Shown here: piece after piece, positions 14,865 to 26,512 of the stretch
How positions within the stretch are numbered: position 1 is the stretch's first letter
Layout: every line of letters begins with the position of its first letter
NCBI GenBank assembly: GCA_002070095.1
Contig: MWCR01000009.1
Location: forward strand, 1-63,102
Reading direction: 5' to 3'
From: Parcubacteria group bacterium ADurb.Bin192
GTDB taxonomy: Bacteria > Patescibacteriota > Patescibacteriia > 2-12-FULL-60-25
DNA length: 63,102 bases
Made by a program: the position numbers and the translations under genes
The notes under the pieces: generated by a model
Database searches by the model: none
What the model was told of the DNA's origin: nothing
What the model saw: only the letters and a program-made list of their open reading frames with translations

Positions 14865-15280
14865 TTCACACGGAAAACTGTTTGATTATCATGGATCCCG
14901 GCTACGAGGTTTTGGGGGAGGTGTATTTGGCGCAGGGCATGTGCCGGAGTATCAGTTTAAATCAAAGAGGAGATCAATTGCTCGGCGTATTTATTGAAGA
15001 CTGGCAAGTCCATGGTTTGGAGCGCATGCAACAGTCTTTAGTGCAGACCAAAGAAGGGCCTATGGACATGTTTAGCGCGGAAAAAGTCAGTTTGCAATCA
15101 CAGGATTTTGCTTCGGCTTTGCGGGGCTGGCTGGATGATCATGGTTTTTTGCACCATACTTTGCCTTTGGGCGCCATGGCCGCCTGGAGCGAGATTCAAA
15201 AAAAAGATTTGGATAATCGTCAAAAATTGGAGCTGGCTTTGATGTTAGCCAGTTTGCCCGTGGAAAAATTGGAGCTTTAA
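14861..15280 (+). CDS. Unknown small protein coupled to the preceding gene
   Basis: I do not recognise this 139-aa soluble protein. Its sequence mixes strands in the first half (LIIMDPGYEVLGEVYL) with helices in the second. Translation is probably coupled to the upstream gene through the ATGA overlap. Its last 36 bases overlap the 3' end of znuB on the other strand, so the two transcripts converge. The pair may be a CPR-specific unit attached to FtsEX; no function can be inferred. Confidence 0.6.
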   Translation: MIHTENCLIIMDPGYEVLGEVYLAQGMCRSISLNQRGDQLLGVFIEDWQVHGLERMQQSLVQTKEGPMDMFSAEKVSLQSQDFASALRGWLDDHGFLHHTLPLGAMAAWSEIQKKDLDNRQKLELALMLASLPVEKLEL

Positions 15281-16072
15281 GCGTTGCCCGGCCATGGTCA
15301 GGCCGAAAATAGCTATGCCTGTCAGCACGATAACGGCGCCGGTGGGCAGGTTTAGAATGATGGACAAAATCAATCCCAGCACGATGGATATTTCAGAGAT
15401 GATCACGCTGTAAGCCATGAGCTGGTGAAAAGACTGGGAGAATATCTTAGCGGTTGAAACCGGAATGATTAACAAGGCGCTGACCAGAACCACACCCAGC
15501 ATTTTCATGCCCAAAACCACAGACAAGGCAATGATGACATAGAGAATGGTTTGGTGCAGGGATACTTTGATGTTATTGGCATGAGCAATGTCCGGATTCA
15601 AAATCATGAGCGCCAATTGTTTGTGGCGGAACATCAAATAGATGATGATCAGCAGACCAAGTCCGGCCATGATGTATAACTCGCTCCATTGCAAAGATAA
15701 AATATTACCGAACAAGAAACTGACCAGCTCCGGCTGGTAGCCTTTTTTTAAGGACAGTAAAACCACGCCCGTGGCCATGCCGGCTGTAAAAATAAGCCCA
15801 ATGATGGCGTCGGACGCGATTTTTGTTTTGCGTTCAAACCAGGAGATGAGGACCGCGAAGATGGAAGACGCGCCCAGAGCCACGTATAAAGGATTGGCGT
15901 TGGTCAGAACGCCCAGGGCCACTCCGGCCAGCGAGGCGTGGGCGATGCCGTCGCTGAAAAAAGCCATGCGTTTCAAGACCACAAAAATGCCCAGCAAAGA
16001 CAAAAGCGCGCCCAGTATGAGACCGGCCATGATGGCTCTTTGCATGAAAGGCAGGGCTAGATATTCAAGCAT
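15245..16072 (-). CDS. znuB: Zinc/manganese ABC transporter permease
   Basis: The 275-aa protein has about eight membrane spans in the ABC-3 metal permease pattern, including the DGIAHASLAGVALGVL motif near residues 41-56 and LVSALLIIPVSTAKIF in the C-terminal half. It forms the membrane channel of the import system with the adjacent ATPase and binding protein. It lies three bases downstream of znuC and is the last gene of the zur-led operon. Confidence 0.93.
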   Translation of the reverse strand: MLEYLALPFMQRAIMAGLILGALLSLLGIFVVLKRMAFFSDGIAHASLAGVALGVLTNANPLYVALGASSIFAVLISWFERKTKIASDAIIGLIFTAGMATGVVLLSLKKGYQPELVSFLFGNILSLQWSELYIMAGLGLLIIIYLMFRHKQLALMILNPDIAHANNIKVSLHQTILYVIIALSVVLGMKMLGVVLVSALLIIPVSTAKIFSQSFHQLMAYSVIISEISIVLGLILSIILNLPTGAVIVLTGIAIFGLTMAGQRLKLQFFHGQTG

Positions 16073-16075
16073 AAA

Positions 16076-16786
16076 TCAGGTTTTGTGTTGGTGATTATGC
16101 CGGTGGATTTCGTGATTTGGTCCGTAGAGTTGATGCATGACCTTTTCGGTCAGCGCGTAGCGGGGAGGGCCGTTGCATATCAAGTCTGTGTTCAGACAAA
16201 TTATCTGGTCCGCGATTTTATAAACCACGTTGACTTCGTGGCTGATGAGTAGAATAGTCACTCCGTGCTCTTTGTTTAAATGTTCGATGACTTCGTAAAA
16301 TGTTTTAGCGCCCGCGATGTCAATACCGGTTGACGGTTCGTCCAAGAGCAAGAGGTCTGGGTTTTTGTATAAGGCTTGGGCTATCAAGACTCTTTGCAGT
16401 TGTCCGCCGGAAAGTTCGCCTATCAGCTTATTTGATAGATTGTCTATTTTGACTTCACGGCAAATTTGCGTAGCTTGTTGGCTTTGGACCGGCGAAATAA
16501 AACTCAAAAATTCACGCACCGTGATGGGCATGGTTCGGTCAAAATCAAAATATTGGGGCACATAACCTATGCGGTTTAGAGCCAGGCTTGGTTTTTGGTT
16601 GAATATTTTGATGCGGCCTTGATAAGGGATCAGATCCAGTAAGGCTTTGATTAAAGTGCTTTTACCCGATCCATTGGGTCCGATGACGGCCGTTAAACTG
16701 CCTTTAGGCACCTCAAAGCTGATGTTATTTAAAACAATCCGCCTGTCATAGGCTACGGTTAAGTTTTTGACGTGGACGGCGTTCAT
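16076..16786 (-). CDS. znuC: Zinc/manganese ABC transporter ATP-binding protein
   Basis: The 236-aa ATPase has Walker A VIGPNGSGKSTL (about 33-44), Q-loop GYVPQYFDFD, signature ELSGGQLQRVLI, Walker B LLLLDEPSTGID and the switch His in LLISHEVN. The C terminus ends in a short His-rich tail (HEIHRHNHQHKT), possibly a metal-sensing or binding tail. Its ATG overlaps the znuA stop by four bases. Confidence 0.94.
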   Translation of the reverse strand: MNAVHVKNLTVAYDRRIVLNNISFEVPKGSLTAVIGPNGSGKSTLIKALLDLIPYQGRIKIFNQKPSLALNRIGYVPQYFDFDRTMPITVREFLSFISPVQSQQATQICREVKIDNLSNKLIGELSGGQLQRVLIAQALYKNPDLLLLDEPSTGIDIAGAKTFYEVIEHLNKEHGVTILLISHEVNVVYKIADQIICLNTDLICNGPPRYALTEKVMHQLYGPNHEIHRHNHQHKT

Positions 16787-18137: not shown

Positions 18138-18173
18138 GGTGCAATTATAATGCAACTAAGTTGCATTTGTCAA
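18138..18173 (-). promoter_or_regulatory. Consensus promoter with palindromic Zur operator
   Basis: On the minus strand TTGACA (18168-18173) and TATAAT (18144-18149) are separated by 18 bases. The spacer is filled by a perfect 19-bp palindrome, AATGCAACTAAGTTGCATT (18149-18167), which shares one base with the -10 box. A regulator bound there would block RNA polymerase. The -10 lies six bases before the zur ATG, so the message is probably leaderless. Confidence 0.85.
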
Positions 18174-18189: not shown

Positions 18190-18221
18190 AAAAAATCCCC
18201 CGCGGCTTTTGGCAGAGGGGG
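18190..18221 (-). terminator. Terminator of tRNA-Gln
   Basis: On the minus strand CCCCC (18217-18221) and GGGGG (18197-18201) close a loop of about 15 bases, followed by TTTTTT. It begins three bases after the tRNA CCA. Confidence 0.65.
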
Positions 18222-18223
18222 AG

Positions 18224-18297
18224 TGGCTCCGGGACAGGGATTCGAACCCCGATAAACGGCTTCAAAGGCCGCTGTCCTACCATTAGACGATCCCGGA
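18224..18297 (-). tRNA. tRNA-Gln (anticodon UUG)
   Basis: The cloverleaf is complete. The acceptor arms TCCGGGA and TCCCGGA pair fully, the anticodon arm is GCGGC-CTTTGAA-GCCGT giving UUG, the T arm is CGGGG-TTCGAAT-CCCTG, the discriminator base is G as usual for glutamine tRNAs, and CCA is encoded. Confidence 0.95.
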
Positions 18298-18835: not shown

Positions 18836-18940
18836 ATGATGTTTGATGGAGAAGACACACAAATGACGCCTCCAACGGATACTCCTGAGGAGACCGCAGC
18901 TCCGGCTGAAGAAACTCCCGCAGGTGAAGAGAACGCCTAA
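18836..18940 (+). CDS. Small acidic Pro/Glu/Thr-rich peptide gene
   Basis: The 34-codon frame begins with two ATGs and encodes a peptide rich in Glu, Pro, Thr and Ala with no hydrophobic stretch, so it would be soluble and probably unstructured. A second possible start at 18863 has a GGAGAA site before it and gives 25 residues. It is flanked by a near-consensus promoter and a good terminator, so it is a self-contained unit that is probably well transcribed. It could also be a small RNA, but the frame is clean and biased. I do not know its function. Confidence 0.55.
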   Translation: MMFDGEDTQMTPPTDTPEETAAPAEETPAGEENA

Positions 18941-18954
18941 TACAGGCAAAAAAC

Positions 18955-19018: not shown

Positions 19019-19630
19019 ATGAATAAGCAGTTTAAATTTTTATTGGCCGTGCTGGCGGCTTTGGCCGTGCTGTATTTCGGCGGGCAGTTGGCGGACAACG
19101 GTTCAGCTGATCAAACCCCGATTACGTCCGAGATCAGTGCGGATGAGCTTTTGAATGACGGAGAAAAAATCGTGGATCAGGCCTTAGCTCATCAAGCCAA
19201 TGCCTTGGTGGTCAGGGTGGTTGACGGCGATACCATAGTGGTCAAATTGGATGCTGACCCGGACCGGGAGCAAAAGGTGCGCCTGCTGGGAGTCAACACG
19301 CCGGAAACCGTGGATCCGAGAAGGGCGGTTGAATGTTTTGGTCAAGAAGCCTCGAGTTTCGCTAAAACCGTGTTAACCGGCCGGCGGGTATTTTTGCAAG
19401 CTGATCCTGAAGCCGACGAGATGGATAAGTACGGCCGTTTGTTAAGAAATTTATACCTGGAAGATGGTTTGGATTTTAATGCCACTTTGGTGGTCAGGGG
19501 TTTTGCCAACGCGTACCTGTCTTTTCCTTTGAACGAAGAACGCAAGGTTCAATTAAGACGCTTGGAAAAACAAGCTGAACAGGCCGGAGCCGGATTATGG
19601 TCGGACCAAGCTTGTATAGGCGGTGAATAA
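19019..19630 (+). CDS. Secreted thermonuclease-like (SNase) protein
   Basis: The 203-aa protein has an N-terminal membrane anchor or signal (FKFLLAVLAALAVLYFGG) and a complete staphylococcal-nuclease fold from about residue 60. Catalytic landmarks are VRVVDGDTIVV, VRLLGVNTPETVDP (first Arg and Glu) and DKYGRLLRNLY (second Arg). It cuts DNA and RNA with calcium outside the cytoplasmic membrane, so it may scavenge nucleic acid for a cell with limited nucleotide synthesis; that use is an inference. It starts the rightward run that includes the VKOR-DsbA gene. Confidence 0.9.
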   Translation: MNKQFKFLLAVLAALAVLYFGGQLADNGSADQTPITSEISADELLNDGEKIVDQALAHQANALVVRVVDGDTIVVKLDADPDREQKVRLLGVNTPETVDPRRAVECFGQEASSFAKTVLTGRRVFLQADPEADEMDKYGRLLRNLYLEDGLDFNATLVVRGFANAYLSFPLNEERKVQLRRLEKQAEQAGAGLWSDQACIGGE

Positions 19631-26013: not shown

Positions 26014-26409
26014 CTATTTTTTCAAACAAGCGTGACAAGTGCCTTTGGCCAAAAAAACAAAAGACCGGATTTGGCCCGGGTAATCCGCTTTGACGGTGAT
26101 GGGCATGAGATCCGTCAGACGGCCGCAGGCGGTGCACATAAAATGTCCGTGGCTTTGGACGGCCGCGTCATAACGAGCCGGTCCGTCATCGGTTTTGATT
26201 TCATTGATTAAGCCATTGTCAACCAGGGCGGCCAGATGGCGGTAGACGGTTGATAGTCCGATGTTGGGCACTTCTTTCTGGATTAAACGGTGGCATGTTT
26301 GCGCGTCCGGATGATCATGCCGGGCTCTCAACAATTCCAATAATATAAGCAGACGGTCGCAGTCTCTTCGGCGCAAAATGTTTTTTGAGGCGGCTTTCAG
26401 CTTTTCCAT
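26014..26409 (-). CDS. perR: Fur-family regulator, probably PerR
   Basis: The 131-aa regulator has a winged-helix domain (LSTVYRHLAALVDNGL) and a metal-binding C-terminal half, RYDAAVQSHGHFMCTACG, with the Asp and two His expected of the PerR regulatory site. A second CxxC lies near the end (CHAC). Heading an operon of two peroxiredoxins and a superoxide dismutase points to peroxide or iron sensing. The ATG directly touches the palindromic operator, leaving no room for a Shine-Dalgarno site. Confidence 0.85.
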   Translation of the reverse strand: MEKLKAASKNILRRRDCDRLLILLELLRARHDHPDAQTCHRLIQKEVPNIGLSTVYRHLAALVDNGLINEIKTDDGPARYDAAVQSHGHFMCTACGRLTDLMPITVKADYPGQIRSFVFLAKGTCHACLKK

Positions 26410-26455
26410 AAGTGAGAATTATTCTCACTTTAAAATATTAGACGCAGCATGTCAA
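26410..26455 (-). promoter_or_regulatory. Promoter and operator of the oxidative-stress operon
   Basis: On the minus strand TTGACA (26450-26455), a 17-bp spacer and TAAAGT (26427-26432) form a promoter. A perfect inverted repeat, arms AAGTGAGAAT and ATTCTCACTT around one central base (26410-26430), covers the end of the -10 box and the transcription start and runs up to the regulator's ATG. The inner 7-1-7 part (TGAGAAT-T-ATTCTCA) has the geometry of Fur-family boxes. Confidence 0.8.
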
Positions 26456-26512
26456 GATCTGTCTGTGGATAAAATTAGACTAATTCAAAACAATTCCGTA
26501 ATATGATGGCGT

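Follow-up and report, generated by a model that had tools for sequence, protein, structure and literature searches.

A predicted Zur-type operator in the promoter spacer of a zinc-uptake operon from Patescibacteria

In E. coli, Bacillus and actinobacteria, dimers of the Fur-family regulator Zur bind palindromes that overlap the promoter elements of znu genes, as proposed for the locus described here, although the E. coli site is longer and is bound as two dimers (PMC6103462, PMC4219657). The closest described sequence comes from Rodionov et al. 2004, who predicted ATGCAACNNNGTTGCAT as the ZUR box (Zur_D) upstream of znuABC-zur in Desulfovibrio vulgaris and D. desulfuricans (PMC545781). A third relative is the Nur box of Streptomyces coelicolor, tTGCaa-N5-ttGCAA, which shares its outer half-sites and spacing with the general TGCAA-N5-TTGCA box of Patescibacteria; Nur, however, is a nickel regulator of sod genes and its consensus lacks the inner C...G seen here (PMC3919588).

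We analysed a window of 63,102 nucleotides (the whole stretch of DNA considered, from Parcubacteria group bacterium ADurb.Bin192), in which the minus strand upstream of a Fur-family gene reads TTGACA-AATGCAACTTAGTTGCAT-TATAAT-TGCACC-ATG (table 1). Both hexamers match the consensus (12 of 12 bases) across an 18-bp spacer, and the −10 element ends 6 nt before the zur ATG (18137), all as the initial annotation of this DNA had reported. The same annotation equated the spacer with a perfect 19-bp palindrome. Its perfection stands, AATGCAACTTAGTTGCATT being a flawless 9-1-9 repeat, while its extent needs a trivial correction: the palindrome comprises the 18-bp spacer plus one base of the −10 element, whose first T is also the last base of the repeat. 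The box had been considered unlike those of E. coli and Gram-positive bacteria, which is borne out by comparison with the E. coli, Bacillus and actinobacterial sequences (PMC6103462, PMC4219657). It had also been suggested that this may be a new Zur site; as the window sequence ATGCAACTTAGTTGCAT fits the 17-bp Zur_D consensus exactly, that is incorrect for the sequence. In the forms of the motif string that we searched, the 2004 study was the sole match among 5.39 million open papers.

The two systems thus have in common an identical 17-bp consensus, located in each case before an operon that encodes a zinc ABC transporter and includes a Fur-family gene. They differ in gene order (znuABC-zur in Desulfovibrio versus zur-znuACB in the window), in host (Desulfobacterota versus Patescibacteria) and in the position of the site, which in Desulfovibrio is −216 and −47 relative to the start codon and here falls between the −35 and −10 elements; in the accessible part of the 2004 paper we found no description of a site between these elements with a near-zero leader (PMC545781). 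In the literature searched, we found no Patescibacteria operator described for any metal regulator. The box type is therefore known, while the lineage and the fixed architecture are new.

Table 1. Features of the zur operon and its upstream region in the window.
Feature	Position	Strand	Evidence
znuB-like ABC-3 permease	15245..16072	-	PF00950, 223.8 bits
znuC-like ABC ATPase	16076..16786	-	best NCBIfam match ZnuC, 180 bits, below equivalog cut-off
znuA-like zinc-binding protein with His/acid-rich loop	16783..17733	-	PF01297, 249.8 bits
zur, Fur-family regulator, 137 aa	17724..18137	-	PF01475, 75.3 bits
−10 hexamer TATAAT	18144..18149	-	read from sequence; consensus match
Predicted Zur operator, 19-bp perfect palindrome	18149..18167	-	sequence; kept in relatives
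−35 hexamer TTGACA	18168..18173	-	read from sequence; consensus match
Terminator-like hairpin between tRNA-Gln and zur promoter	18197..18218	-	weak; shuffles mean 1.4
tRNA-Gln, upstream of zur promoter	18224..18297	-	

We consider it highly probable that the product of the adjoining gene, Zur, uses the palindrome as its operator, and that zur-znuA-znuC-znuB is subject to zinc-dependent repression from this spacer site, probably with leaderless initiation. When zinc is sufficient, a metal-loaded Zur dimer would occupy TGCAAC-NNN-GTTGCA between the −35 and −10 elements and block access of RNA polymerase to the consensus promoter; under zinc scarcity, the repressor would dissociate and the four genes would be transcribed as one operon, so that zinc import would be negatively autoregulated. 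Transcription would probably start at the zur AUG or a few bases away. The presence of a terminator-like hairpin and a same-strand tRNA-Gln gene upstream suggests that the zur promoter is the operon's own. Within the window, a scan of both strands allowing up to three mismatches matched the palindrome only to itself (shuffles mean 0.01), and the site is likewise single in the 1.44-Mb genome, where a search for further copies at the same tolerance found none, which argues against a wider regulon of the strong box.

Patescibacteria are very small, mostly uncultured bacteria. A search of related genomes recovered the same box between the −35 and −10 elements of orthologous operons in many of them. 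The composite −35/box/−10 pattern TTGACANATGCAACNNNGTTGCATNATNNT gave 11 matches in 84,980 species genomes, although the closest relatives of the window's genome may be missing from this search. Nine of these records were named as Patescibacteria, Parcubacteria, Daviesbacteria, Moranbacteria, Uhrbacteria, Gottesmanbacteria or Harrisonbacteria and two as ‘uncultured bacterium’; a Fur-family gene lay directly downstream in all 11, and znuA, znuC and znuB were identified downstream by tblastn in seven. At the level of the class, the exact 15-mer TGCAACTNAGTTGCA was present in 17 of 381 genomes, compared with one for a reversed-pattern control, and adjoined zur or znuA in 12 of the 17. Across the phylum, ATGCAACNNNGTTGCAT was found in 9 of 380 genomes, in six of them close to zur or znuA; in one of these six the regulator begins approximately 400 bp further downstream. 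Exact boxes elsewhere in these two scans fall mostly within coding genes and probably reflect chance. One genome in the set (G063) has the order box-znuA-znuC-znuB-zur, the arrangement described for Desulfovibrio. Two pairs of loci match at 100% identity: L003, from a congeneric genome, with part of L053, and L010, from the same class, with part of L056. The general box across the phylum is TGCAA-N5-TTGCA, and more than half of the regulators that bear it have no znu gene within approximately 1.5 kb.

Boxes at three loci of relatives may also be noted. Locus L042 carries tandem TGCAAC-type boxes around position 1501, one between the −35 and −10 elements and the other between the −10 element and the start codon. 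In L037, again around 1501, a box TGCAACTAAGTTGCA lies 38 nt before a gene whose collagen-like product is exported and contains a His-rich stretch; it may be a surface protein under zinc control. L048 has an exact box 74 nt before the gene for ribosomal protein S20.

Promoter geometry is also shared among relatives. A perfect TTGACA occupies exactly the window's position in 18 of 28 box-bearing regulators, and in several of the remainder either the TTGACA or the −10 element has moved by one base to give a 17-bp spacer. The distance from the −10 element to the start codon, the other half of the compact layout originally noted, recurs as well, at exactly 6 nt in 10 of the 28 and 5–9 nt in 18, a spacing that fits leaderless initiation. 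The published in silico sign of a leaderless gene is a −10 element about 10–12 bp before the start codon; judged by a −10 element about 6–7 nt before it and no Shine-Dalgarno sequence, the form used here after PMC3160421, zur in the window shows both features. In 463 kb of the window's genome, where each long open reading frame was assumed, as an approximation, to begin at its first possible start codon, TATAAT peaks 6–11 nt ahead of start codons and Shine-Dalgarno-like tetramers are not enriched (6.7% versus 9.4% at a control position). Leaderless initiation at zur is thus likely on sequence grounds. The principal alternative, which would leave the operator as predicted, is that the true zur start lies downstream or that transcription begins upstream, giving a leadered mRNA. 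Some relatives do have their first start codon 18–39 nt past the −10 element, but the recurrence of the 6-nt spacing, the lack of Shine-Dalgarno enrichment and the need for the regulator's N-terminal residues to complete the fit to the Fur winged helix make this unlikely.

The identity of the regulator deserves closer scrutiny. The gene heads a zinc-type ABC operon of order zur-znuA-znuC-znuB, with the znuA start overlapping the zur stop, and its product passes the Fur superfamily profile PF01475, which covers the winged-helix and dimerization domains, scoring 75.3 bits where 23.1 are required. Its best match of solved structure is Mycobacterium tuberculosis FurB/Zur (2o03, E = 2.3e-15). The structural zinc site has both of its CxxC motifs (C92/C95 and C133/C136) and invariant in 46 of 46 relatives, and linkage to znuABC, used as a test for the Zur branch, is found for the window regulator. 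On the other hand, where M. tuberculosis and S. coelicolor Zur have a sensory-site Cys, the window regulator has Ala82, and only a few other box-bearing relatives carry the Cys; Glu80 is Fur-like. We take these two positions to be metal-ligand sites of the Fur family. The curated Zur equivalog PRK11639 scored 33.5 bits where 167 are needed, no Fur-family equivalog was passed by the regulator, and all four operon proteins fall below their NCBIfam equivalog cut-offs. Since the sensory Cys is replaced and the Fur-like Glu is kept, the regulator sequence does not fix the metal; the zinc assignment leans instead on the operon, the His/acid-rich loop and the Desulfovibrio parallel. The original naming of the gene as zur therefore holds as regards a Fur-family regulator heading a zinc-type operon but not as regards the Zur sensory signature, and its support comes more from the neighbouring genes than from the regulator itself.

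The regulator could conceivably sense manganese, iron or nickel, with the ABC transporter carrying that metal and the site and mechanism unchanged. Besides Glu80 and the missing Cys, the binding protein has its best NCBIfam score with Deinococcus MntC (below cut-off), and TGCAA-N5-TTGCA resembles the nickel Nur box. Against this, the ZnuA-like protein contains a zinc-type His/acid-rich loop (HDHGHEEDELKKEDHEE), the ATPase is nearest to ZnuC and the permease to AztB/ZnuB, the nearest solved relative of the regulator is a Zur, and an identical box precedes znuABC-zur in Desulfovibrio (PMC545781). We regard a metal other than zinc as improbable.

Box sequence and recognition helix also vary together. 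In the window regulator the recognition helix HKTTIYRE begins at K51, and for each regulator we scored the position five residues ahead of the conserved T-x-Y-R Arg (K51 and Arg56 in the window). By alignment, the scored residue would be the first of recognition helix α4, and the conserved Arg would correspond to Arg65 of E. coli Zur, which reads bases. In a first set, Lys or Arg was present in 30 of 30 box-bearing regulators versus 1 of 16 others, with L004 entered as box-bearing since the box heads its operon. A larger sample comprised 94 regulators picked by protein search alone. TGCAA-N5-TTGCA, with at most one mismatch, lay upstream of 61 of these, compared with 0–2 for four control patterns. 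The inner C...G was present in both half-sites for 24 of 31 regulators with Lys/Arg and for 1 of the 30 others (Fisher p = 1e-9, with the caveats that the sequences are related and that the motif was refined after part of the box and residue data had been seen). The remaining boxes mostly have A, G or T at the inner base, TGCAAATNATTTGCA and TGCAAGTNATTTGCA being common. An earlier formulation, that regulators without Lys/Arg have no box, proved wrong, as many have TGCAA-N5-TTGCA with a different inner base. In six loci (L091, L094, L097, L106, L107 and L115), all with NKTT(I/V)YRE helices, CGCAAC-NNN-GTTGCG takes the place of TGCAAC-NNN-GTTGCA, a change at the outer base that leaves the inner C...G intact.

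At the level of sequence, the correlation between Lys/Arg and the inner C...G is strong. A znuA gene lies within approximately 1.5 kb of 13 of 31 Lys/Arg regulators and 10 of 30 others; as these proportions are about equal, the pattern looks like one of DNA specificity rather than a difference in metal. On a tree, approximately six Lys/Arg changes provide five supported independent contrasts, of which a mean of 3.4 are concordant and none opposite, too few for significance. We therefore advance, with only a little more belief than doubt, a code for Zur-type regulators of Patescibacteria in which the first recognition-helix residue would set the inner half-site base: Lys or Arg would specify C·G (TGCAAC...GTTGCA), and Leu, Gln, Thr, Tyr and others TGCAA[A/G/T], all within one TGCAA-N5-TTGCA family that would include Desulfovibrio Zur and Streptomyces Nur. 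A purely structural role for the palindrome as a hairpin, terminator or RNA element, which a 9-bp inverted repeat could form, is scarcely credible, given that it lies upstream of the predicted transcript start and so would be absent from the RNA, that relatives retain the base sequence itself, not only its ability to pair, at a constant position between the −35 and −10 elements, and that the box covaries with the recognition helix.

A consensus promoter whose spacer holds a Zur-type operator is an ordinary kind of arrangement, and the mechanism proposed for it is very likely right; the useful part is the extension to Patescibacteria together with the residue–base rule. The former provides a bioinformatic regulator–operator pair of fixed architecture on which in vitro work is possible without culturing the organism. 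Under the latter, operator sequences of Patescibacteria Zur-type regulators would become predictable from the protein, and the Nur box would belong with the box predicted for Desulfovibrio in 2004 to one TGCAA-N5-TTGCA site family.

Two other features of the window may be mentioned. A second Fur-family gene (26020–26460, minus strand, ATG 26409) is preceded by a perfect palindrome, AAGTGAGAATAATTCTCACTT, that ends right at the start codon, and has a peroxiredoxin-like gene downstream; a locus from the same genus, L030, carries this second box type as GAGAATNATTCTC. On the plus strand, a very short acidic open reading frame, MMFDGEDTQMTPPTDTPEETAAPAEETPAGEENA (18838–18942), follows a promoter-like region containing TTGACA and precedes a nuclease-like gene at 19019.
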